Made by a program: the position numbers and the translations under genes. This document shows, piece by piece, positions 76 through 34,254 of a stretch of 39,037 nt of DNA. The stretch comes from Ignavibacteria bacterium (GTDB lineage Bacteria > Bacteroidota > Ignavibacteria > Ignavibacteriales > SURF-24), in the NCBI GenBank assembly GCA_025612375.1, contig JAAXKN010000039.1, forward strand, positions 1-39,037, written 5' to 3'. The notes under the pieces are model-generated. The model did not search any database and was not told the DNA's origin. It was given only the letters and a program-made list of their open reading frames with translations. The first letter of the stretch is position 1, and each line of letters opens with the position of its first letter.

Positions 76-126
76 AGTAACTGCGTAATTCTTACTGGTC
101 CAATTTCATTGGAATTCTTAACTTAT

Positions 127-789
127 TTAATTTTCCTGGATATATCTTTTTCGGCAAAGGTCTTTTATTGTCTCTTTGTGATTATAAGTTTTGTAGAGGT
201 TTAAAAAATCAGCTATTTCTTTGTTCCTATCCGGAAATTCACCGGGCAGCTTACTTACAAGACTGTCAGCTTCCTTTTTCTTTCCTAACTGCAATAATAT
301 AATTATTCCGTTACTGTAGTCAGTGAAGTCATGTTTTTCTTTAAAGCGCATCCGGTAAACTGCCAGTGCTTTTTCATAATTCTTTATTGCTTCTTTCTTG
401 TTTTTATTACCTTCATACAGCATTCCCAGCAAAGCAATGCTTTCAGCCATCTCCGGACTATTCTTAATACATTTTTCCATTGTCTCTATTGCGTCCAGGG
501 TACGCCCATAGCCCAAAAGAATATTTGCCTTATTGCCATAAGCCAGATAATAAGAGCTATCAGCAGTTATGGCTGAATCTAATAAGCTAATCACAAGCAC
601 TGCAACTCTGAAATCAGGCTTTTCCTTTACCATTTCCTTTTGCCATAGGCTTAATGCTTTATTGTTAAGCTCAATTGATGCCGAATTGAATTTACTGCTG
701 CCAGCTGGTTTTTCATTTTCGCATTTGATTTGCGGAAAAATGAAGCTGGATATAACGGATAAAATTATAACAGATAGAATTATTTTCAT
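127..789 (-). CDS. secreted TPR-repeat protein (220 aa)
   Basis: Residues 1-23 form a signal peptide (MKIILSVIILSVISSFIFPQ). The cysteine at 23 is preceded by Gln-Ile-Lys, which is not a canonical lipobox, so lipidation is unlikely. The mature part has two recognisable tetratricopeptide repeats at about 80-148, with 'YGNKANILLGYGRTLDAIE' and 'GMLYEGNKNKKEAIKNYEK' as the helix-turn-helix signatures. The remaining helices are more divergent. TPR proteins act as protein-protein scaffolds; no catalytic motif is visible. It lies 101 bp downstream of another secreted TPR gene on the same strand, so the two may be co-transcribed and work in the same envelope complex. The specific role is unknown. 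Confidence 0.75.
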   Translation of the reverse strand: MKIILSVIILSVISSFIFPQIKCENEKPAGSSKFNSASIELNNKALSLWQKEMVKEKPDFRVAVLVISLLDSAITADSSYYLAYGNKANILLGYGRTLDAIETMEKCIKNSPEMAESIALLGMLYEGNKNKKEAIKNYEKALAVYRMRFKEKHDFTDYSNGIIILLQLGKKKEADSLVSKLPGEFPDRNKEIADFLNLYKTYNHKETIKDLCRKRYIQEN

Positions 790-890
790 TTTATCGCAGC
801 CTGCATTTTACAAGTTGTTATTTACAAAACGTCCAGAAGAGTCCTGAGACGGAATTGTTTGTAATTCACTACCCCCGGGGCAATTTATTT

Positions 891-1967
891 CTACAATGAA
901 TAATCTGACCTATGGAATTTATGATCTTTATCAATTTTCAGCTGATGGCTCTTAAACCAATTAATGAACTCGCCGAACTTCTCCTTATTTGCCTCCTGCC
1001 AGGTGTCAAATTCATCTGAGGCGCCTGCCATAAGTAACCAGTGATTATAACTGTCAAAATAGCCATTGTCTATCAGAGCCTTGTGCCAGTCATATAATAC
1101 ATTTTGATAATTCTGGTTGTAATTTTCTGCAAAATACCTTTTTACAAAGTTTGTACGGATCCTGCTAAGACTCTCAAGCGAAATGCCCTTCTCACCCGTA
1201 ATTGACATAGCGATCAAAGGTTCAAATACCCCCAATCCAAATGGAAGCCTTCCGGCTGAACCATCATCCTTTATAGTGACACTTCCATTTTTGCTAAAAC
1301 TTATCTGGATTGTTGAATCGGATTCAAATTTAATTCCAGCGCTGTACGTATCAAATAGCAGCTTGCTTATTTCTTCCGTTCTGTCACTTCCACGCTCCAT
1401 ATTCATAAATATCTCGCCATAAAGAACACCCCATACTCTTTCTGTTGACGCACAAAACAATTTTGCTGCCCGGTAGTAGTTTGAGGGAAATCCAGGATCC
1501 GCCTGAATTCCTTTTTCGTAATATTTCAGTGCTTTCTGCAAACTGTCCTTCTGCATGTTTCCCATCTCAAGATAAAGCCTGCCTGAATTCGGAAATTTCT
1601 CAAGTCCTTTTTGATATATTCCTAAAGCACTGTCGCGTTTACCGGATTCATCCAGGATATTTCCAAGCATCTGATAATATTGGTCAGAAATATCTTTCAT
1701 AATAAGTGTCTGCTTCAAAGTTTCTATTGATTTCCCAAAATCTTTCTTCAGATAATATGCATAGCCCAGTTCAAACCTGTAATCCGGTTTCTCAGGATCC
1801 AGTTTACAGGACTCGTTCAGCATAGTAATTGCCGTTTCCAGGTCGCCCTGATCCATTATCTTTACTGCTTTCAGCGCGGTTGAGTGCGCCTTCTGCTTAT
1901 CAGTGTCAGACTGGCTGAAGACCGCATTGCAAATGAATAGCAAAAGAATAGTAGTTATTAATTTCAT
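891..1967 (-). CDS. secreted TPR-repeat protein (358 aa)
   Basis: A cleavable signal peptide (MKLITTILLLFICNAVFSQ) is followed by three to four tandem TPR motifs at about 27-165, for example 'YRFELGYAYYLKKDFGKSIE', 'LGNILDESGKRDSALGIYQK' and 'MGNMQKDSLQKALKYYEKG'. Residues 170-358 form a separate, probably globular region without a motif I recognise, rich in aromatics near the C-terminus ('NHWLLMAGASDEFDTW'). The GAGGG ribosome binding site sits directly before the ATG. The product is likely periplasmic. The C-terminal part may be the functional domain, with the TPRs as a docking platform. It precedes the 220-aa TPR gene on the same strand. The function is not assigned. Confidence 0.75.
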   Translation of the reverse strand: MKLITTILLLFICNAVFSQSDTDKQKAHSTALKAVKIMDQGDLETAITMLNESCKLDPEKPDYRFELGYAYYLKKDFGKSIETLKQTLIMKDISDQYYQMLGNILDESGKRDSALGIYQKGLEKFPNSGRLYLEMGNMQKDSLQKALKYYEKGIQADPGFPSNYYRAAKLFCASTERVWGVLYGEIFMNMERGSDRTEEISKLLFDTYSAGIKFESDSTIQISFSKNGSVTIKDDGSAGRLPFGLGVFEPLIAMSITGEKGISLESLSRIRTNFVKRYFAENYNQNYQNVLYDWHKALIDNGYFDSYNHWLLMAGASDEFDTWQEANKEKFGEFINWFKSHQLKIDKDHKFHRSDYSL

Positions 1968-2346
1968 TTTCCCTCTTTATCTTTTTGAATACTAATTAAA
2001 ATCCAGGCTTCGAAAGATTCAATCAGTTTTTCTTTATAAGTTTATTAGTTGACGAGTGAGCCAGCTTCAATTTCCACTTTCCAGCTATATAGATCCGGTT
2101 TCCTGATAAGTTAAAATTCTTTTCTTTCATACATATATATGGTGACAAGGAGCGTTTTCGGAAAATTATTTTATTTTTTTGTGGAATGCCATCAATTTTT
2201 GATCTTTTGGGAATATTTTATTGCATGCTGATTGTTCTTCGGTTTTATTTGTAGTTTGACTATTTTTGGTGCTGAATATTTTTTCCTCATCAGCTTAAAT
2301 TAGAAATAAGTAAAATTCTGAAACCGTTTTTATTATAAAGGAATTC
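1968..2346. other. AT-rich intergenic region between divergent genes
   Basis: This 379-bp stretch separates the minus-strand TPR gene from the plus-strand 167-aa gene and must hold both promoters. A TTGAAT followed 17 bp later by TTAATT on the minus strand (about 2018 down to 1990) is a weak candidate for the TPR gene. A TATTTTTG at 2261-2268 resembles the Bacteroidota -7 element but has no correctly spaced partner. No open frame, repeat or RNA gene is apparent. Confidence 0.4.
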
Positions 2347-2850
2347 ATGGATAAAGAATATTATATATTGTGGTACCGTCTGAATAAAAATGACAGATAC
2401 CTTATCTGGTTCTCTGACGAATCTGACGGCGTCGTAACCGGCCCCTCGGGCAATGCTTTGAGCTTTAACTCCAAAGCTGAACTGCAAGAGTATGCTTTGA
2501 AGAATAATCTGGACATTACCTCTGAGGAACCGGAACTGCACAACCTAGACCTCGTCTCCGAGTGGATAAAGGAAAGTGATCCCTCATCTATTAATTTCAG
2601 CCAGTTCAATAACATATGGAACCTCTGGACAGACATTTCTAACAGCACGGGAAAAGGCTTTGATGAGGATATTGAATCCGCCGAAATGATCTATGATAAA
2701 CTGTTCTGGAGCTGCACGTTGCCTACCGGGAAATCAGACGACCAGGAGTATATCCCCGAATGGACTGAAGATGAACTGAAAAATATGAGGGAACTGTTCT
2801 TAAGGGGAATTGATATGTTTACTCGTGCGGTTATTCCCTACTCTAAATAA
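2347..2850 (+). CDS. unrecognised cytoplasmic protein (167 aa)
   Basis: I do not recognise this family. The protein is acidic and rich in Trp, Tyr and Asp/Glu, with no signal peptide, transmembrane segment or metal-binding motif. The N-terminal third looks like a small beta-rich unit ('YYILWYRLNKNDRYLIWFS'). The C-terminal part looks helical ('TEDELKNMRELFLRGIDMF'). AGGAATTC before the ATG supplies a plausible ribosome binding site. It stands alone, 111 bp before the secreted DUF3160 gene on the same strand, so operon membership is possible but not shown. Codon use is like that of its neighbours, which supports a real gene. Confidence 0.65.
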   Translation: MDKEYYILWYRLNKNDRYLIWFSDESDGVVTGPSGNALSFNSKAELQEYALKNNLDITSEEPELHNLDLVSEWIKESDPSSINFSQFNNIWNLWTDISNSTGKGFDEDIESAEMIYDKLFWSCTLPTGKSDDQEYIPEWTEDELKNMRELFLRGIDMFTRAVIPYSK

Positions 2851-2919
2851 ATCCGGCATCTATTATTTCTGAGTCACAAAGGCCGGGGTGCGGACTAATA
2901 ATTCCTTGAGATTATAAAG

Positions 2920-2970
2920 CCATTTCATTAACTTACCTTCAAACATAAAAAGAGGTATGTCGTGAAATGG
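2920..2970 (+). promoter_or_regulatory. hairpin covering ribosome binding site and start of the DUF3160 gene
   Basis: Two nested helices are visible. The outer helix pairs CCATTTCA (2920-2927) with TGAAATGG (2963-2970), perfect over 8 bp. The inner helix pairs ACTTACCT (2931-2938) with AGGTATGT (2953-2960), 7 of 8 pairs. The inner right arm contains most of the AGAGG Shine-Dalgarno; the outer right arm contains the TG of the GTG start codon. The loop is 14 nt. If it forms in the mRNA, translation initiation would be blocked until it is opened, by heat, a protein or another factor. The stems are A/U-rich, so stability is uncertain. Confidence 0.4.
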
Positions 2971-5547
2971 TTTTTACGGTCTCTGGCAATATCTTTAGTG
3001 TTATTAAGCTTCTTTTCGGCGCCGCACGCCCAGACGCCTGACTTTAACGTAAACAGCTACAAACAGTTCCTTTCTGAAAACCAGAATCTTACAACTGAAA
3101 AACTCCTCGGTATGCATCCCACAGGCCTTTTTATGGGAAATCTGAGGCTTAACCACCTCTCAGGACTCTACGCCGACTCAATCGGGATTAAATTTAATCT
3201 CACTTCAGGGGAAAAGTCACTCCTGGATAAAAACGGGTTCATGGTAACCGAAAGGGTTCACTTCAATACGTTTCAAATTGCTTTTCGGGAAATCTACAAC
3301 AGGGACCTACCTGTAATGATTACAAGCGATGCAGTTCTGCATGCTTTCCACATGTCGTACGATAAGATCCTTATGGATGTGGAGAATGATGTTCTGATAC
3401 CAGAACTGAAAAGTTTCCTCAAAAGCCTGCATGAAAATCTTCCGGCTCTTAAGTCTGCTTACAGCGCTGATGCCGGGATGACCACATCGTTAAAAGACGT
3501 GGACATATATCTTACCGTTGCAAGAACGCTCCTTGAGGGACAGACGGCACCAGTATTTGCCGAGAACAGCAGCGAAATTACGGCTATCCTCCAGTTTATT
3601 ACTTCTGAACAGCCGGCTAGTGTAAATCTGTTCTCCTCAACCGGTAAGTTAATAGATTTCAGCCAGTTTAAGACGCGCGGTCATTACACGAAAAGCCCCG
3701 CTCTTACCAGCTACTTTAAGGCTATGATCTGGCTGGGCAGAACTGAAATGTATCTTTCTGCCCCGCGCGCTTTAGAACCAGCTCCAAAACCTGAAGATAT
3801 TCAAAGACAGACAATTGATGCAGCGCTTATTCTGGAAGCCGTCCAGGCTTCAGGAACAATGCCGCAATATGAAAAGATTAACGGCATCATTGAATTTTTT
3901 ACCGGCGAACAGGATAATGTCACTCTCGTAAACCTTAAGAGCCTTACTCAGTCACTGAATGTTATTAAGGCCGGCGAGCTTCTGGATATCTCTAAACTTA
4001 AGACATTCCAGGATTCATTAAAAAACCAGTCTTATGCCTTTCAGAGGATCCTTTCACAAATAATATGTACCGGCTTTGATTCGCCCGACAGCATCGTTCC
4101 CGCTTCGGCTTTCATGCTCTTCGGACAAAGGTTTGTTATTGACTCCTACGTTACGGCACAGACTGTCTTCGACAGAATCTACTTCAACAACGAACGCATG
4201 AAAAGAATGCTCCCTTCAACGCTCGACGTGATGTATGCACTGGGCAATGATGCTGCAATACAGCTTCTTAAGCCGGAACTGGACAAGTACCACTACGGAA
4301 CGAACCTGGCAGCTCTCAGATACCTTGTGGATTCCTACGGCGAGGACTTCTGGAATCTTTCACTTTATAACGGCTGGCTTAATTCCATAAGAAAGTTAAA
4401 CCCGAAGAAGGATAGGTCAAATCTTCCTTCGTTTATGCAGACTGCAGCCTGGTGGCAGCAGAAACTGAATACACAGCTAGCCTCCTGGGCTCAGCTCAGG
4501 CACGATAACCTGCTTTATGCCAAGCAGTCCTATAGCGGCGGAGCAGGATGCTCCTTCCCTTATGGCTACGTGGAGCCTGTACCTGAACTTTACCTTGAAC
4601 TAAAGAAGCTCTCTGAAAAGGCAAAGAATTATTTTTCGTCCTTCAATTTTTCAGACAGCTATACTAAATCTGTATTGAATAGTTATTTCTCAAATGCTAT
4701 CACTATCTATACAAAACTGGCTTCAATATCTGAAAAGGAGCTCGGTAAAACTCCCCTTTCAGACGAAGATATGACATTTATTAGAAGCCTGGTCTCAACA
4801 GGCGGCGTCTGCGGTATGGACTTTCATCCGGGGTGGTATATGCAGCTTTTCTATCAGGGGGATGCGCTTGCCAACGACCCGGAATACGTAGTTGCCGACG
4901 TTCATACCGCCCCTACAGATGAAGCAGGTAACCCCACGGGCTGGGTCCTGCATGCAGGCACAGGGCCTGTTAACCTGGGCGTATTCTCGGTTGAGAGCCC
5001 ATCGGGAGAGAGAATCACATATGCCGGTCCGATGTTGAGCTATTACGAATACCTTACTACAGGTTTCCAGCGCCTGTCGGACGAGGAATGGTTAAGCAAA
5101 ATGAATATGATCTATATGAGCAATCCTCCTGCCCTGCTGCGCCCGGAATTTGTTAATCTTTACCTGACAGACTATTTGGGCAAGGAAAGACCAGAAGGAC
5201 TCTCACTTCTGACTTCTGTACCGGACAGGCCGGATGACCAGCTGCCCCAGACAATGACGCTTGCACAGAATTACCCAAATCCCTTTAACTCAACTACTGT
5301 CATAAACTTTGTAATTCCTAATAAAATGGCAAACCGCCAGGTGACGCTTATAGTCTATAACGCGCTAGGAGTTGAAGTTAAGAAGCTGATCGATAATACC
5401 CTCCCTGCAGGCAATTATTTCATGCGTTGGAACGGGACGGATAACTTCAATCAGAGCGTGTCAAGCGGCGTTTACTTCTATAACCTGGTAATTGATTCTG
5501 AAGGATTAAAGGAAAAGGTTTCTGGGAAAATGATGCTTTTGAAATGA
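2962..5547 (+). CDS. DUF3160 protein with type IX secretion sorting domain (861 aa)
   Basis: A signal peptide (about 1-24, ending in 'FFSAPHAQ') is followed by a long DUF3160 domain (about 60-750), recognised by 'VTERVHFNTFQIAFREI', 'VMITSDAVLHAFHMSYDKI' and the late 'VADVHTAPTDEAGN' and 'HAGTGPVNLGVF' segments. A C-terminal beta-sandwich of about 85 residues follows, beginning 'LAQNYPNPFNSTT' and ending 'GKMMLLK'. This is the type A sorting signal of the type IX (Por) secretion system. The product is therefore probably exported through both membranes and attached or released at the surface. DUF3160 has no established activity that I know of. The start is GTG, with AGAGG eight bases upstream and no alternative in-frame ATG nearby. 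Confidence 0.85.
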   Translation: MKWFLRSLAISLVLLSFFSAPHAQTPDFNVNSYKQFLSENQNLTTEKLLGMHPTGLFMGNLRLNHLSGLYADSIGIKFNLTSGEKSLLDKNGFMVTERVHFNTFQIAFREIYNRDLPVMITSDAVLHAFHMSYDKILMDVENDVLIPELKSFLKSLHENLPALKSAYSADAGMTTSLKDVDIYLTVARTLLEGQTAPVFAENSSEITAILQFITSEQPASVNLFSSTGKLIDFSQFKTRGHYTKSPALTSYFKAMIWLGRTEMYLSAPRALEPAPKPEDIQRQTIDAALILEAVQASGTMPQYEKINGIIEFFTGEQDNVTLVNLKSLTQSLNVIKAGELLDISKLKTFQDSLKNQSYAFQRILSQIICTGFDSPDSIVPASAFMLFGQRFVIDSYVTAQTVFDRIYFNNERMKRMLPSTLDVMYALGNDAAIQLLKPELDKYHYGTNLAALRYLVDSYGEDFWNLSLYNGWLNSIRKLNPKKDRSNLPSFMQTAAWWQQKLNTQLASWAQLRHDNLLYAKQSYSGGAGCSFPYGYVEPVPELYLELKKLSEKAKNYFSSFNFSDSYTKSVLNSYFSNAITIYTKLASISEKELGKTPLSDEDMTFIRSLVSTGGVCGMDFHPGWYMQLFYQGDALANDPEYVVADVHTAPTDEAGNPTGWVLHAGTGPVNLGVFSVESPSGERITYAGPMLSYYEYLTTGFQRLSDEEWLSKMNMIYMSNPPALLRPEFVNLYLTDYLGKERPEGLSLLTSVPDRPDDQLPQTMTLAQNYPNPFNSTTVINFVIPNKMANRQVTLIVYNALGVEVKKLIDNTLPAGNYFMRWNGTDNFNQSVSSGVYFYNLVIDSEGLKEKVSGKMMLLK

Positions 5548-6466: not shown

Positions 6467-8027
6467 TTGATTTCCTTATAAATTTAATTGCTTCGGGTAA
6501 ATTTTGAATAATGTCAGTAGCCATTATGCCATATTCAGTCTTATCCTTCAAGAGCAGGTCGGCTGAGAGGCTGTGCAGATAAACTGCAGATACTACGGCA
6601 CCTTCTGTGTCCTCTGCCTGCGCTGCGAAGCCCGCAATTATACCCGTTAAAACGTCCCCGGTTCCAAACTTTGCCATCCCGGGGTTCCCGGTGCTGTTAA
6701 TAAGAGCTTCCCCGTCAGAGTTAAAAATAACTGTCGGGGCCCCTTTCAGAACCAAAAGCGCCCCGGTCTCCTCAGAAAACCTGCGCCCATATGTCAAAAC
6801 GTCACCCTGAAGTTCAGTAAGACTGATCCCCAGGAGGTTTGCAAATTCCGCCTGATGGGGAGTAAGAATGCAGTTACTCAAATCAAGGCTCTTGTACTTC
6901 CCTTCTCCAAGAGCAAAGATGGCATCGGCATCAATTACAATTTTCTTATTCTTATTCATCCTGATTGTTTCAACGACTGCTTCAACAGTTTCCTCGTCGC
7001 GCCCAAGCCCGGGGCCTATAGCCAGAACATCCATCCATTCAAAGCGCTTCTTCAGCTCTTCAATATTACCTTTGCTGAAAATGCCCCTGCCCTCATCTTT
7101 ATACGGAAGCACAATTACTTCGTCCAGCTTGCTCTGGATTACTCCCTGGGCCGATTCTGGAAAACACAATATTGAAGCTCCGGCGCCTGAGTGCAGAACA
7201 GAAGAAGCCGTCATAAAAGACGCTCCCGGAAGGATATTTGAACCCGCAATTACCAGAACCTTACCGGCACTGTATTTATAGAGGTCTTTGGCCTTTTGAG
7301 GTAAATTAAAAAAAGCATCCTCAGGTTCAATTACATAAGTATCGACTTGAAAATTATCAAAATATTCGGGTGCAAGACCTATGTACCCTTTCTTAATTTC
7401 ACCTGAAACAACGGCGCCTTTATTTACAAAAAGCCCTTTTTTAAGCTCGGCAAGCGTAACTGTAAGGTCGGCCACAAAGGCTTCATCGCCCGATCCCTTA
7501 TCGGCATCAAGCCCGGTCGGAATATCAAGAGCTACCCGGACTCCGTTAAACTTATTCAGCTCTCTTACAATTTCAGCATATGGCGATTTAAGGCTCCCCG
7601 AGGCGCCTGTGCCTAGGAGCGCATCCACAATCAACTGTGAATTTTCAAGCCTTTTAAGGTCGCGCACCGATTTATACTGCCTCATAAAAGAGGTTTCATC
7701 AGAATAGTGGATTACGTTTTGAAGGATCTCAAAATTTGTGAGGGCGTCTCCTTTTAACTCCTCGGCGTCCGAAAGGTAGATTACACCTACCCTGAAGCCG
7801 GAATTTATAAAATGCCTGGCAAGCGCAAAGCCGTCACCGCCGTTATTGCCCCTGCCGCATACAATTCCTATTAAAGAAGACTTATTTAAGCCGGGATACT
7901 CTTCCCTTATTATGCTGAAAATGCTCAAGGAAGCATTTTCCATAAGAATGAGCCCCGGAATCTGAAGCTGGCCGATTGCATATTCATCAGCCGATCTTAC
8001 CTGGGAAACAGAAAATAAAGGTATCAT
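6459..8027 (-). CDS. nnrD: bifunctional NAD(P)H-hydrate epimerase / ADP-dependent dehydratase
   Basis: This is a metabolite-repair enzyme that converts damaged hydrated NAD(P)H back to NAD(P)H. Residues 1-215 are the YjeF_N epimerase domain, with 'GRGNNGGDGFALA' at 58-70, 'ALLGTGASG' at 136-144 and 'DIPTGLDADKG' at 168-178. Residues 245-522 are the ribokinase-like dehydratase (CARKD) domain, with 'GPGLGR' at 338-343, 'IDADAI' at 365-370, 'TPHQAEFANLLG' at 389-400 and the 'NPGMAKFGTGDVLTG' nucleotide loop at 448-462. The 522-aa length matches the fused bacterial form (often annotated nnr or yjeF). It overlaps the VanZ-like gene. Lying just after the nuo genes is sensible, since complex I consumes NADH. 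Confidence 0.93.
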   Translation of the reverse strand: MIPLFSVSQVRSADEYAIGQLQIPGLILMENASLSIFSIIREEYPGLNKSSLIGIVCGRGNNGGDGFALARHFINSGFRVGVIYLSDAEELKGDALTNFEILQNVIHYSDETSFMRQYKSVRDLKRLENSQLIVDALLGTGASGSLKSPYAEIVRELNKFNGVRVALDIPTGLDADKGSGDEAFVADLTVTLAELKKGLFVNKGAVVSGEIKKGYIGLAPEYFDNFQVDTYVIEPEDAFFNLPQKAKDLYKYSAGKVLVIAGSNILPGASFMTASSVLHSGAGASILCFPESAQGVIQSKLDEVIVLPYKDEGRGIFSKGNIEELKKRFEWMDVLAIGPGLGRDEETVEAVVETIRMNKNKKIVIDADAIFALGEGKYKSLDLSNCILTPHQAEFANLLGISLTELQGDVLTYGRRFSEETGALLVLKGAPTVIFNSDGEALINSTGNPGMAKFGTGDVLTGIIAGFAAQAEDTEGAVVSAVYLHSLSADLLLKDKTEYGIMATDIIQNLPEAIKFIRKSSV

Positions 8028-8139
8028 GTAATTACCTTTGTCCGTAAATATGTTAATGTAAAATGAACACTTCTAAACCAAAATCTAAAATATTATTCAA
8101 ACCTTTCAGATACAAAAAATAATCTCAGGACCAGTTATA

Positions 8140-9573
8140 TTATCTCAGGTACGAAGTAATCAGATCGATCAAAGTGCCCGGGAATAAACCGAACCCGATT
8201 ACAAGCAGTGCTGAAATAATAACCGCAAGAACACCCTTGGAGTTATTGTGCACCGGCAGAGCTGCGGGCTCAGGATCCCTGAAATACATGTAAACAATTA
8301 CACGGATATAGAAATAAACGCTGATAACGCTTGAAAGGACGCCTAAAATTGCAAGCCACGTCATGTCGGCCTTAATGGCAGAGATAAAGACATAATACTT
8401 TCCGAAGAATCCTGCAAAAGGAGGAAGCCCTGAAAGCGAGAACATGAAAAGAGCCATTAAAGCTGCAAGCACCGGGTGACGCTGGCTGAGTCCAATGTAA
8501 TCGTCAAGTTCAAGCCTGGAGTCGTTTTCTCCTTCTATCATTGCAATTATACCAAAAGCCCCAAGGTTCATGAAAGTGTAGGCAATAAGATAAAACATTA
8601 TGCCTGCAACGCTTTCATTGTTGCCTGCAGCAAGGCCTATTGCCATATAGCCAGCGTGGGCAATTGACGAGTAGGCAAGCATTCTTTTAAGATTACTTTG
8701 CGAAATGGCAACTATACTGCCGTAGAGCATGGAGAAGGTGGCAATTGCAGCAAAGTAAGGCCTGAAGACGTTTGCAGCGCTTCCGGGGAAAACGGCTCCA
8801 AGCGCAATAATAAGGACGCTGAAAGCAGCAGCCTTGCCGCCTGTGGACATGAGCCCCGAGACCGTGGTTGCACTTCCCTGGTAAACGTCAGGCACCCACA
8901 TATGAAATGGGAAAGCAGCAATCTTGAATGAGAATCCGATTAAGAAAAGGAGCATTCCTGCAACAAACAAAATGTTGTGCGTCAGCATCCCGAAGTTAGT
9001 AATAATTGTATCTATATTTGTAGTGTGAGAGGTTCCGAAAATAAGAGCGATGCCATAGACTATGAAGCCTGTAGCAAATGAGCCCAGAAGGAAGTACTTC
9101 AGTGAAGCTTCATTTGCACTGCTTTTTTTCCTGTTAATGCCCGCAAGCACGTAAAAGCAGATTGACATCTGTTCAAGCCCGATGAAAACCATGAAAAGGT
9201 CCTTGGCTCCTGCCATCATCATCATGCCCAAAACAGAAGAAAGGATCAGGATATAATACTCGCCGAAATAGCTTCCGTACTTCTTTATATACTCCATAGA
9301 GCTTAAGACCGTAAGGGCCGCAGCAAGAGTAAAGAGGAAGTTGAATATTCCGACGTTGCCTCCATAGGCCAGCATGTTGTTATAAACCGTGCCCGTGTTG
9401 TTGAGGCTGAAGAGGGAATATGCCGAGGCTGCAAGAAGTACAAGAACGGAAAACCAGGGGAGTACTTTGTCGCTTTTCTCAGAAGTAATTTCAATTACAA
9501 CTGAAAGGAACACTCCGGCACCAACTAGAATTAAAGGTAAAATATTATAAATATCCTGAATATGGTTTTGCAT
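8140..9573 (-). CDS. nuoN: NADH-quinone oxidoreductase subunit N
   Basis: This is one of the three antiporter-like proton-pumping subunits of complex I in the inner membrane. The 477-aa protein has about 14 transmembrane helices. Diagnostic segments are 'FKIAAFPFHMWVPDVYQGS', with the conserved Lys of the broken helix, and 'QSNLKRMLAYSSIAHAGYM', plus 'GLSQRHPVLAALMALFMFS' and 'SLSGLPPFAGFFGKYYVF'. It is the last gene of the J-K-L-M-N series, 56 bp after nuoM. The length is close to the family norm. Confidence 0.95.
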   Translation of the reverse strand: MQNHIQDIYNILPLILVGAGVFLSVVIEITSEKSDKVLPWFSVLVLLAASAYSLFSLNNTGTVYNNMLAYGGNVGIFNFLFTLAAALTVLSSMEYIKKYGSYFGEYYILILSSVLGMMMMAGAKDLFMVFIGLEQMSICFYVLAGINRKKSSANEASLKYFLLGSFATGFIVYGIALIFGTSHTTNIDTIITNFGMLTHNILFVAGMLLFLIGFSFKIAAFPFHMWVPDVYQGSATTVSGLMSTGGKAAAFSVLIIALGAVFPGSAANVFRPYFAAIATFSMLYGSIVAISQSNLKRMLAYSSIAHAGYMAIGLAAGNNESVAGIMFYLIAYTFMNLGAFGIIAMIEGENDSRLELDDYIGLSQRHPVLAALMALFMFSLSGLPPFAGFFGKYYVFISAIKADMTWLAILGVLSSVISVYFYIRVIVYMYFRDPEPAALPVHNNSKGVLAVIISALLVIGFGLFPGTLIDLITSYLR

Positions 9574-28882: not shown

Positions 28883-30867
28883 GAGATGCTGCTTATTATT
28901 AACAATAGGTTCTGAATCCAGAAAAGCCAGCGCACGGTAAGATTTGTGCTTCCCCCGTACTGGTTGTGCAGGAGGTAAGAATTGTTCGCATAATTAAGAT
29001 CCAGAATGTTTTTTCTATAGGGATCTATCTCTGCGCCTGTTACTCTGTACTGTGTTCTGAAAGTGATCTTCTTCCATCTTTCCTCCCCGTTCCACTTCCG
29101 GATGATTGTATCCCTGTCCGTATACAAAGCCACGTCCTCTTTGAATACGGCGTCCCCAAGCCTTTCGGCCATAACTTCATACTCATCTTTCCTTCCCGTA
29201 CTCTTTACATATTTTATCCTGTAGTCAAACGTTGCCGAAGATGTGTAGAGGTTATTAAAGAACCAGGTCATATCTTCAGGCGAGAGCTTCATAACGGTAC
29301 CAATAAAATCTTTTCCCGTGGGGTGGGTAAACCTGTATGAGCTGAAAAAATCCTTCAGTATTGAAAGCACCTTATCGCGCCCTAAATATCTTTCCAGCGA
29401 TATGAGCATAAGCTCGGGTTTATAGTAGCCTGAGACCACATAGCTTTGAACCTCGGGCAGCTTATACGAGGTATCTGCAATTGCTGAAGAAGAAGGGCTC
29501 ATGTAGTATCCTGCAAGGGCCTGCATGCCTTCGGGCACAGGATAATCCCCCAGAGTATAAACCAGCGGAAGCTCACTGTAAGAAAGAAAATCCAGGCCGA
29601 AAACCGGGTAATATCCGAAAAGCTTAAAGTTAATGAGAGCTTTTCTGTAATAGCGTTCAATTATTTTATTTGTCAGATAGGAGGCCAGCCCCTCATCCAG
29701 CCAGGCTTCATAAACCTCATTGTTTGCAGCCATGCCGTAAAAATACTGATGCGTAAATTCATGGATGGTTACGTATTCAGGCGACAGGGTTTCAACCGGT
29801 GAGAAAAGGTCGCTTCTTACCGTAATAAGCGCCGGGTATTCCATCCCCCGTGAGCGGCTTGTCTTTGGAAGATCCACTACTGTAATTGTCTGATACGGAT
29901 ATTGCCCTATAAACTTTTCAAAAAATGTGAGCGAGTTTTTAACCGCCTGTACGTAGCGCTCCAAATATTTTTCGTTTTCCGGCTGGACGAAAGTTTTAAT
30001 TGTGATCCTGCTGTTGTCGCTCCTTATATATTCCGAGTTTTTGGATATTATGTTATCCGAGGCCATCCATGCAAAGTCGTGTATGCCCGACTGCCTGAAG
30101 AAGTATGAAACCTTGCCGCCGGGAGCGTTTTTCCTTTCCGCCAATACCCCGCTTGAGGCAACGGTATACTTTTCCGGGACCGTAACGCTAACCTCATAAT
30201 TTCCAAAGTCGGAGAAGAAATTGGTAAATGGGTGATACTCGCTGCAGATCCATTTGCCATCCGTAAAGACTCCTGCCTTTATGAACCACTGGGAGACGAA
30301 GTAAAAGTCGCGCCCTGCGGCATAGCCGAAGCGCTGTATCGACCTGGGTACAGGCACGCGGTAAGTAAATTTAAGCTTTACTGAATCGCCCGGGTTAACA
30401 CTTTTTCCCGGCACCACTTTTGCCACCGTGCTGTCAAAAGGATTGTCTGATTCAGTGTGGACGTAGTGGAGTTCAACTGGGCTGTCATCAAGGCTGGCGC
30501 TTTTAAGGAATATGCCTGAACAGCAGTCACTGGAAAATTCAGCCTCCCTTCCCTTAAAGTACTCTGTCCTGCTGTTTCTAAAAGCGTTCGGGTAAAGGTG
30601 GAGCATTATTTCAGCCGCCGGATAGCTGGTTTTATTTATCCACGTAAGCTCCTCGTAGACCTCCAGTGTTTTTGCTTCGGGCTTAAGTTCAGTCCTGATC
30701 CTGTAGCTGGCAACAGAAGGATAAGGCGTATTTTTCAGGATCCCGTTATGGTAACTCTTTTCCTTTAAGTCCGGCTTCACCTCTGAGGTAAGTGTGGCGC
30801 CTGGTTTATTCAGGTACGTAAGGCCTGCAAATGCAATTACAACGAGAATAAGAAGTATGTTCTTCAT
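28879..30867 (-). CDS. M1-family metallopeptidase (gluzincin), membrane-anchored
   Basis: A 662-aa zinc peptidase. An N-terminal hydrophobic segment (MKNILLILVVIAFAGLTYL) is a signal peptide or anchor. The beta-rich N domain leads to 'SRGMEYPALITV' at 339-350, equivalent to the GxMEN exopeptidase motif. The zinc site is 'HEFTH' at 369-373 with the third ligand Glu392 in 'WLDEGLAS', 18 residues later, as in M1 enzymes. The C-terminus ends in a hydrophobic stretch ('WLFWIQNLLLIISSIS'), a possible second membrane anchor. It probably trims peptides at the envelope. The GMEYP variant suggests a divergent aminopeptidase. It starts the operon with the 300-aa membrane protein, def and fmt. Confidence 0.85.
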   Translation of the reverse strand: MKNILLILVVIAFAGLTYLNKPGATLTSEVKPDLKEKSYHNGILKNTPYPSVASYRIRTELKPEAKTLEVYEELTWINKTSYPAAEIMLHLYPNAFRNSRTEYFKGREAEFSSDCCSGIFLKSASLDDSPVELHYVHTESDNPFDSTVAKVVPGKSVNPGDSVKLKFTYRVPVPRSIQRFGYAAGRDFYFVSQWFIKAGVFTDGKWICSEYHPFTNFFSDFGNYEVSVTVPEKYTVASSGVLAERKNAPGGKVSYFFRQSGIHDFAWMASDNIISKNSEYIRSDNSRITIKTFVQPENEKYLERYVQAVKNSLTFFEKFIGQYPYQTITVVDLPKTSRSRGMEYPALITVRSDLFSPVETLSPEYVTIHEFTHQYFYGMAANNEVYEAWLDEGLASYLTNKIIERYYRKALINFKLFGYYPVFGLDFLSYSELPLVYTLGDYPVPEGMQALAGYYMSPSSSAIADTSYKLPEVQSYVVSGYYKPELMLISLERYLGRDKVLSILKDFFSSYRFTHPTGKDFIGTVMKLSPEDMTWFFNNLYTSSATFDYRIKYVKSTGRKDEYEVMAERLGDAVFKEDVALYTDRDTIIRKWNGEERWKKITFRTQYRVTGAEIDPYRKNILDLNYANNSYLLHNQYGGSTNLTVRWLFWIQNLLLIISSIS

Positions 30868-31031
30868 TGCCTGATGAATAAAATAATTTTACCGGATTTA
30901 ATTTAAAGTGTCATATATTAAAATAAGCGAAGTAAAAATAAGCACGTTTGCGTTAAAACAAAATGACGCACAGTAATTAATTTCAGCGGGCGTTAATCTC
31001 TTATATTCTTCTGATGATGGGTAAAAATAAA

Positions 31032-31055
31032 AAACCCGCCAATGGGGGCGGGTTT
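31032..31055 (-). terminator. terminator after the downstream hsp20 gene
   Basis: A perfect 9-bp stem pairs AAACCCGCC (31032-31040) with GGCGGGTTT (31047-31055) around a 6-nt loop. On the minus strand the stem is followed by a T-rich run (TTTTATTTTTAC). It sits 14 bp past the hsp20 stop codon and closes the heat-shock cluster. Confidence 0.85.
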
Positions 31056-31069
31056 CAAGAAAGGAGATA

Positions 31070-31578: not shown

Positions 31579-31615
31579 TAAGCAGGGCAGGCTTTCTAAG
31601 ACTCTGCCCTGCTTA
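31579..31615 (-). terminator. hairpin after dnaK
   Basis: A perfect 12-bp stem pairs TAAGCAGGGCAG (31579-31590) with CTGCCCTGCTTA (31604-31615), loop 13 nt, starting 9 bp past the dnaK stop. The T run on the exit side is weak (TTCCAAATAAC), so termination may be partial, with some readthrough into the downstream hsp20. Confidence 0.7.
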
Positions 31616-34083: not shown

Positions 34084-34121
34084 AATCTTATCCTCCTTTA
34101 TTGTTTCTGTATTAATATTAT

Positions 34122-34138
34122 CTCAAGTGCCGTGCCAA
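34122..34138 (-). promoter_or_regulatory. sigma-54-like -24/-12 promoter of hsp20-dnaK
   Basis: On the minus strand TTGGCACGGCACTTGAG (34138 to 34122) matches the consensus TGGCAC-N5-TTGC, with GG and G exactly 12 bp apart. The only mismatch in the conserved core is TTGA in place of TTGC. Transcription would start about 34112, 29 nt before the hsp20 ATG. An alternative reading is sigma-A: TTGGCA, 17 bp, TTAATA (34115-34110). A TCAAGT/ACTTGA inverted repeat (34123-34128 with 34139-34144) overlaps the site. No CIRCE sequence is present. Confidence 0.45.
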
Positions 34139-34201
34139 ACTTGAAAACCGCGAAAAATGGCGTTTTTTGAGGGCCTCTTATTTCAAAACTCCCAGGATGA
34201 A

Positions 34202-34254
34202 TGACATTTTGTCAGGAGGCATGTCATTTTGTCGTAAAGCAGGACATTTTGACA
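34202..34254. promoter_or_regulatory. triple 20-bp-phased operator/enhancer sites
   Basis: Three related 13-mers begin at 34202, 34222 and 34242, exactly 20 bp apart: TGACATTTTGTCA (perfect palindrome with a 3-nt centre), TGTCATTTTGTCG and GGACATTTTGACA. They lie about 65-130 bp upstream of the -24/-12-like element of the hsp20 promoter and 100-150 bp upstream of birA on the other side. The two-turn phasing would place three dimers on the same DNA face, as for an enhancer array of a sigma-54 activator. Confidence 0.6.

Follow-up and report, generated by a model that had tools for sequence, protein, structure and literature searches.

The hsp20-dnaK-hsp20 operon and its upstream region

The window analysed in this study (the whole stretch of 39,037 nucleotides) corresponds to contig C39 in a genome of 5.23 Mb from Ignavibacteria bacterium (GenBank assembly GCA_025612375.1). 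Among the named genomes of the collection, the nearest relative is the MAG "Ignavibacteria bacterium bin-C14", whose Hsp20 shows 93% identity. The locus of interest is a chaperone cluster, in which dnaK is flanked by two genes encoding small heat-shock proteins (Table 1). The gap between dnaK and the second hsp20 contains a GC-rich hairpin, GCAGGGCAG...CTGCCCTGC (window about 31580-31613, minus strand), which might lower read-through inside the operon. A search of Rfam at the gathering threshold gave no match between positions 30600 and 34500.

Table 1. Features of the chaperone operon and of the region upstream of it (positions are those of the window; UAS, activator site)
Feature	Position	Strand	Basis
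Terminator-like hairpin and T-run, directly 3' of the second hsp20	31031..31056	-	consensus scan only
Second hsp20, 146 aa	31070..31510	-	Pfam PF00011
dnaK, 646 aa	31624..33564	-	Pfam PF00012, E 3.5e-271
hsp20, first gene, 144 aa	33649..34083	-	Pfam PF00011
Predicted start of transcription (TA in the source genome), about 27 nt ahead of the start codon of hsp20	34110..34111	-	C-purine conservation
Predicted sigma-54 -24/-12 element, TTGGCAC-N5-TTGAG (TTGGCACGGCACTTGAG)	34122..34138	-	sequence; -24 box in 26/26 hsp20 regions
Proximal UAS, TGACATTTTGTCA, 8/8 of TGNCANNNTGNCA, 0 mismatches to the first-pass 13-mer	34202..34214	.	sequence and orthologous regions
Middle UAS, TGTCATTTTGTCG, 7/8 of TGNCANNNTGNCA, 2 mismatches to the first-pass 13-mer	34222..34234	.	
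Distal UAS, GGACATTTTGACA, 7/8 of TGNCANNNTGNCA, 2 mismatches to the first-pass 13-mer	34242..34254	.	
Biotin ligase gene, divergent, upstream neighbour of the operon	from 34354		

A first-pass annotation of this DNA had pointed out three 13-mers (starting at 34202, 34222 and 34242) and a sigma-54-like element on the minus strand ahead of the operon, and direct reading of the sequence located all of them where they had been placed. The three sites share the form TGNCA-N3-TGNCA, follow one another at exactly 20 bp and start 77 (proximal), 97 (middle) and 117 bp (distal) upstream of TGGCAC. When compared with the sigma-54 consensus (GG at -24, GC at -12), the element has the GG and the G at the right spacing, with the final C replaced by A.

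Each of these motifs is unremarkable when counted singly. The number of 13-mers with up to three mismatches in the window is at chance level (18 versus 14.5 +/- 4.3 in shuffles), and 13-mers with one mismatch are not enriched genome-wide (31 versus 44 for the backwards pattern), most of them lying within open frames. A single TTGGCAC-N5-TTG is present in the window (shuffles: mean 0.17, maximum 1) and eight in the genome, a number that equals the backwards control and shows no enrichment. These figures favour the reading that the region is an AT-rich repeat next to a fortuitous TTGGCAC, and the count of the latter pattern would not convince by itself. This explanation is nevertheless hardly credible, given that a triple of sites with at least seven of the eight fixed bases of TGNCANNNTGNCA within 60 bp, present once in the window, was missing from all 150 dinucleotide shuffles, and that the arrangement is conserved throughout the order and the class, yet not at groES (see below). 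When 30 loci were examined for the 31 one-mismatch sites of the genome, the three-site array was found at three of them solely, all three being the hsp20 promoter itself; the seven other intergenic loci had neither the array nor, by eye, a sigma-54 box.

Conservation of the promoter within the order

A search for Hsp20 in 39 genomes of the source order (source genome included) gave a match in every one. There were 30 hsp20 loci among the matches listed, with nine of the 39 genomes contributing no locus; 26 loci, from 26 genomes (one each), were used. L074, L075, L079 and L080 were left out, as the DNA upstream of them resembles, by eye, the coding end of another hsp20. Several of the genomes share a genus, and the 26 regions are therefore not independent of one another.

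A [TC]GGCA[CT] box was present in all 26 intergenic regions, 45-101 bp ahead of the Hsp20 match. It is followed by T at +11 (24/26), T at +12 (26/26) and G at +13 (23/26). The base after this TTG varies (T in 20 regions, G in three, C in two and A in one), which settles the concern, raised in the first-pass annotation, that the -12 element of the source genome ends in GA. At sigma-54 promoters, transcription starts at this distance from the GG: a C followed by a purine was found at +26/+27 (24-25 nt beyond the GG) in 18 of the 26 regions, compared with at most two of 26 elsewhere between +16 and +36.

The hexamers of the source genome can also be read in sigma-A fashion (TTGGCA-N17-TTAATA), in which case the three sites would serve a repressor or an activator. 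This alternative is very improbable. No -10 box is conserved across the 26 regions; nothing resembling TATAAT stands at the N17 place, where most of the relatives carry a C inside the hexamer, whereas the +11 to +13 TTG is kept. Moreover, the pair was not among the matches listed by the sigma-70 consensus scan, and the appearance of sigma-A heat-shock promoters in this group is displayed by the groES regions, with TTGACA, a TATATT-like hexamer and CIRCE. The conserved -24 box, the TTG, the C-purine step and the lack of a -10 box thus favour sigma-54 over sigma-A, and the sigma-54 promoter is, on this comparative evidence, almost certainly genuine.

The activator sites were scanned for at -300 to -60 with a threshold of at least seven of the eight fixed bases of TGNCANNNTGNCA. 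This yielded 42 sites in 20 of the 26 hsp20 regions, an excess of about 16-fold over 200 shuffles (mean 2.6, maximum 10), and no site at 7/8 in the remaining six. In the 30 groES regions used as a control, the same threshold gave seven sites (shuffles: mean 1.9, maximum 6), which is a slight excess. The distances between successive sites (31 pairs) fell at 20-21 bp in six cases, 8 bp in five, 12-13 bp in five and 39-41 bp in four. Since these other spacings recur, strict 20-bp phasing is peculiar to the source genome and its near relatives. Measured from TGGCAC, the start of the proximal site falls 66-145 bp upstream in 36 of 38 site-bearing loci. Both the 13-mer sites and the -24/-12 element, whose conservation in orthologous promoters had been proposed as a check, are thus retained, and the sites are very probably functional.

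groES carries CIRCE

The first-pass annotation had also suggested looking for the same wiring at groES, a gene present in all 39 genomes of the order. The best-scoring copies (30 loci among the matches listed for the same 39-genome set) gave no support to this expectation: the sigma-54 element was found in none of the 30 regions, while CIRCE (TTAGCACTC-N9-GAGTGCTAA, at most two mismatches) was found in 29 of them, as against 0 of 30 hsp20 regions. The groES regions printed carry promoters of the TTGACA/TATATT type. The groES of the source genome (L340) has a CIRCE with one mismatch, and the earlier statement that CIRCE is absent consequently holds for the hsp20 promoter and fails for the genome. 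groESL was rejected as a co-regulated target as far as the best-scoring copy is concerned. Judged from these sequences, the order appears to combine a CIRCE site at groES with a sigma-54 element at hsp20-dnaK.

Distribution in the class and in other phyla

Hsp20 was also searched for in 20 more genomes of the class and matched in 17; in 16 of these 17, reading of the upstream region revealed a plausibly placed TGGCAC-like box (the exception is G128). Nine of the 16 boxes have G at -13 (TTG, once TAG) and seven have C.

The latter variant belongs to a sister lineage. In families f7, f9 and f11, C replaces G at -13 in all seven hsp20 promoters found (TTGGCAC-N2-TTTTCC-like; L236, L237, L239, L241, L242, L243 and L248). 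Sites with at least seven of the eight bases are retained in six of the seven (L242 is the exception), and in five a site begins 25 bp upstream of TGGCAC. In the 400 kb read of the 2.84-Mb genome G091 (20 x 20 kb), the TTTTCC form was found at the hsp20 promoter only. The helix-turn-helix (HTH) of RpoN in these families reads DIST[VI]CR, as against DISTISR (RpoN loci among L297-L316; the alignment was made without L312 and L317, in which the pattern was not found). The link between the RpoN cysteine and C at -13 is imperfect: G153 has the cysteine but a TTG promoter, and G059 has the cysteine and no hsp20 match. If the -12 code and RpoN have truly changed together, this lineage would offer a natural experiment on how sigma-54 recognises its promoters.

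The survey was extended to named hsp20 loci, of which 79 of 80 were used (some from genomes of the order; L175, whose match begins at the first base, was left out). The sigma-54 pattern was present within 450 bp upstream of hsp20 in 33 of the 79, including loci of KSB1 (L200), Latescibacteria (L193) and unclassified bacteria (L186, L188, L196 and L235), each with at least one site. dnaK was found in 34 of the 79 loci, with its start at most 1.2 kb downstream of the hsp20 start in 27. The description of this wiring as uncommon therefore needs qualifying: it spans the class and reaches other phyla, and sigma-54 control of chaperone COGs was predicted for Bacteroidota and Planctomycetota in 2025 (PMC12316311).

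A match to an AAA+ activator of sigma-54 promoters (EBP) at E <= 1e-30 was detected in three of the 79 named loci, and only in L186 ("bacterium AUK196") is it adjacent to hsp20. In this locus an EBP with receiver, AAA and Fis domains (7646-9043, minus strand) is divergent from hsp20 (at 9204, plus strand) and dnaK, and the gap between EBP and hsp20 contains TGNCA-type sites and TTGGCACGGTAATTGT. In L235, an EBP of 1016 aa (114-3161, minus strand) with a long N-terminal stretch of repeats that by eye resemble TPR and GAF lies about 9 kb from an hsp20 that has a sigma-54 box and sites.

RpoN and the candidate activator

The presence of rpoN and of a co-conserved sigma-54 activator had been named as a check on the proposal, and both were found. 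The source genome encodes an RpoN (PF04552, 205.8 bits) in an open frame of 503 aa, and RpoN was detected in all 24 genomes searched. The source genome has 17 strong EBP matches and three weak ones. The reciprocal best hits common to all of G012, G016 and G027 were L033, L034 and L037 only.

To these data a survey of 73 EBPs from 16 genomes was added (G012 is represented by 10 of its 12 strong matches). At E <= 1e-30, every one of the eight genomes in class family f7 yielded two EBPs and no more. In all eight, one of these is the reciprocal best hit of L037, as was found in 12 of 12 genomes searched. The L037 clade has a single EBP per genome for all 16 genomes and is well defined both in the IQ-TREE analysis (support 98/96; 60 of the 73 EBPs, the 13 others having been missed by the Walker-A pattern) and in the FastTree analysis of all 73 (0.993); one further EBP set left out 16 of the 73. 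No other clade of the IQ-TREE tree (60 EBPs) covers all 16 genomes.

The second f7 EBP was at first sight a counterpart of L033 (six f7 genomes) or L034 (two), as judged by reciprocal best hits of 32-36% identity. This assignment was overruled by the tree of 73 EBPs, in which the second EBP falls into a separate clade (0.995; 11 rows) with no member from the source genome, G012, G016 or G027, and in which the L033 and L034 clades have no f7 members. GAFSGA replaces GAFTGA in this protein, and the pattern used found no Walker A; it may nevertheless act as an activator in f7. The same features were observed in a set of EBPs from class genomes (L282-L289, L292 and L294: GAFSGA or GSFSGA for GAFTGA, no Walker A by pattern), which form a clade of their own with L291. 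Another observation concerns L085 (G000:C6:164256-164270, minus strand), a further intergenic TTGGCAC-N5-TTG of the source genome located one short gene downstream of the EBP L038, with two TGATTCATTTTAAGACA copies upstream; it is perhaps the target of another EBP.

L037 (G000:C20:3218-4327, beside lptE) is a receiver-less, PspF-like EBP of 370 aa, encoded in the gene row miaB / SPOR-TPR / metallo-hydrolase / EBP / lptE. It has the bEBP features PF00158, AAA lid and HTH_8, arranged as an AAA+ domain from the N-terminus, then a linker (about 60 residues, including a conserved helix) and finally a Fis HTH; Pfam revealed no sensory domain, GAF included. Its loop reads GSFTGA, and G[AS][FY]TG[AS] is present in 15 of the 16 clade members (GAYTSA in G136). 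The HTH keeps ISERTLYRK or close variants, which matches what a conserved site would require. The alignment of this region was partly filtered on the motif, with L104 (SERTLHRK) and L114 (NERTFYRK) excluded and the frame of L111 misplaced, so the helix should be regarded as strongly conserved and not as invariant.

In all 39 genomes of the order, the C-terminal part of L037 has a best match with E no higher than 4e-18. At E <= 1e-11, 24 of the 148 genomes sampled from the phylum gave a match; this threshold misses true members, because f7 genomes without such a hit do have an L037 counterpart. The gene is not linked to the operon: in the genomes compared it lies on another contig or hundreds of kb from hsp20. 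Three genomes of the class without an Hsp20 match (G059, G063 and G167) have an L037 counterpart, which implies that this EBP has other targets, or that hsp20 was missed or lost there. In Bacteroidia, an L037-type EBP may lie near groESL.

It is conceivable that the promoter and the enhancer are as described and that they are served by another EBP (e.g. the two-component L033 or L034) or by several. The 17 strong matches of the source genome offer ample candidates, and L033 and L034, too, are reciprocal best hits in G012, G016 and G027. The arrangement in AUK196 speaks in the same direction, since the receiver-bearing EBP that adjoins hsp20-dnaK there, with similar sites in between, falls outside the L037 clade, and other EBPs may thus read similar sites; it supports control of hsp20-dnaK by EBPs in general and weakens the exclusivity of L037. 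Against this stands the situation in f7, where hsp20 has the sites and each genome has two EBPs, yet neither belongs to the L033 or L034 clade, and where the second EBP belongs to a group missing from the EBP set of the source genome. Another activator is therefore rather unlikely, and an L037-type EBP is, on the distribution of these sequences, quite probably the one that acts at the operon.

Proposed mechanism

The proposal that a sigma-54 promoter with upstream activator sites precedes the chaperone cluster has been strengthened: both elements are conserved, rpoN is present and a co-conserved activator exists. In the model that we consider fairly probable as a whole, and for which we infer the binding, the signal and the sensing, the 270-bp region upstream of hsp20 would be a sigma-54 promoter with its own enhancer. 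RpoN-polymerase would wait on TTGGCAC-N5-TTGA (34138-34122) until a hexameric AAA+ activator, most likely L037, assembled at the three TGNCA-N3-TGNCA sites and opened the promoter, giving a transcript of hsp20-dnaK-hsp20 from about 34110. Such a hexamer mechanism is established for EBPs generally.

Since L037 has no sensor domain, its activity would probably depend on chaperone titration, on a partner protein or on the amount of L037 itself. We prefer a model in which it is switched by chaperone titration or by a partner protein. The gene content of the operon inclines us to regard stress as the signal, albeit with less assurance than we attach to the activator.

Comparison with known systems

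The study PMC12316311 (2025), in the parts compared here, used promoter matrices to predict sigma-54 regulation of GroEL, IbpA, GroES, GrpE, DnaJ and DnaK in Bacteroidota and Planctomycetota, and reported sigma-54 dependence for grpE (B. thetaiotaomicron and F. psychrophilum) and for groES (B. thetaiotaomicron). The Bacteroidota classes enriched in that study were Flavobacteriia, Bacteroidia and Cytophagia, and "Ignavibacter" is absent from its main text. It predicts groES to be sigma-54 regulated, whereas the best groES copy in the order studied here is of the CIRCE type. The sections compared assign neither an activator site nor an activator to the chaperones, and state that not all of the organisms covered had information on EBP specificity. 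Sigma-54 control of chaperones in Bacteroidota was thus already predicted on a genome-wide scale and is known in kind. What is new is the activator site with its conservation, a candidate for the activator, the division of chaperone genes between sigma-54 and CIRCE, and the spread over the class and into other phyla; our search of the open-access literature found no description of an activator site or an activator for these genes in Ignavibacteria.

The closest parallel in architecture is NorR at norVW, described in PMC2941729 as having three tandem upstream sites, a sigma-54 promoter and an AAA+ activator, and an EBP oligomer on the sites reported here can be likened to NorR on its three sites. 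The geometry is the same as well: the NorR core given in PMC1274295 is GT-N7-AC, and the sites here read G-N-C-N5-G-N-C. NorR differs in its GAF domain and its control by NO, whereas L037 lacks a GAF domain, scores below the cut-off of the NorR model (NF003451: 319.9 bits, cut-off 476) and would have chaperone targets.

PspF is a receiver-less AAA+ activator with a C-terminal Fis HTH, and L037 resembles it in both respects. However, L037 stays below the cut-offs of both PspF models (TIGR02974: 276.1, cut-off 443.55; NF008622: 224.2, cut-off 529) and has its linker of about 60 aa, with the conserved helix, between the AAA lid and the HTH.

Heat-shock genes have been connected with sigma-54 before. 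In Myxococcus xanthus, HsfA reportedly activates the heat-shock gene lonD (Ueki and Inouye, 2002, listed among the references of PMC9548883). HsfA would be a dedicated activator, of the sigma-54 type, of a heat-shock gene, as proposed here, but one that belongs to a two-component phosphorelay and has a Lon protease as its target. In E. coli, dnaK is controlled by sigma-32, and ibpAB is also transcribed by this factor. For ibpB, transcription by sigma-54 has been reported (cited in PMC4370416), which makes it, like the hsp20 of the present study, a small heat-shock gene under sigma-54.

Conclusions

It is tempting, though tentative, to combine these observations into a broader picture. The L037 clade would then be a dedicated activator of the response to chaperone stress, sensing by titration of chaperones or clients, and would provide a third heat-shock route beside sigma-32-type factors and HrcA-type repressors, alongside HrcA/CIRCE at groESL; in the sister lineage, the promoter code would have shifted (C at -13, a site at 25 bp, and DIST[VI]CR in RpoN).

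Sigma-54 promoters are silent until an ATP-driven activator acts on them, which would place the operon under tight control. The f7 genomes, with two EBPs each, make the question of the activator directly testable, and the conserved enhancer site provides a handle on the rest of the regulon. With dnaK and two small heat-shock proteins, and apparently not groESL, under sigma-54, the heat-shock response of these bacteria would be split between two regulatory logics.
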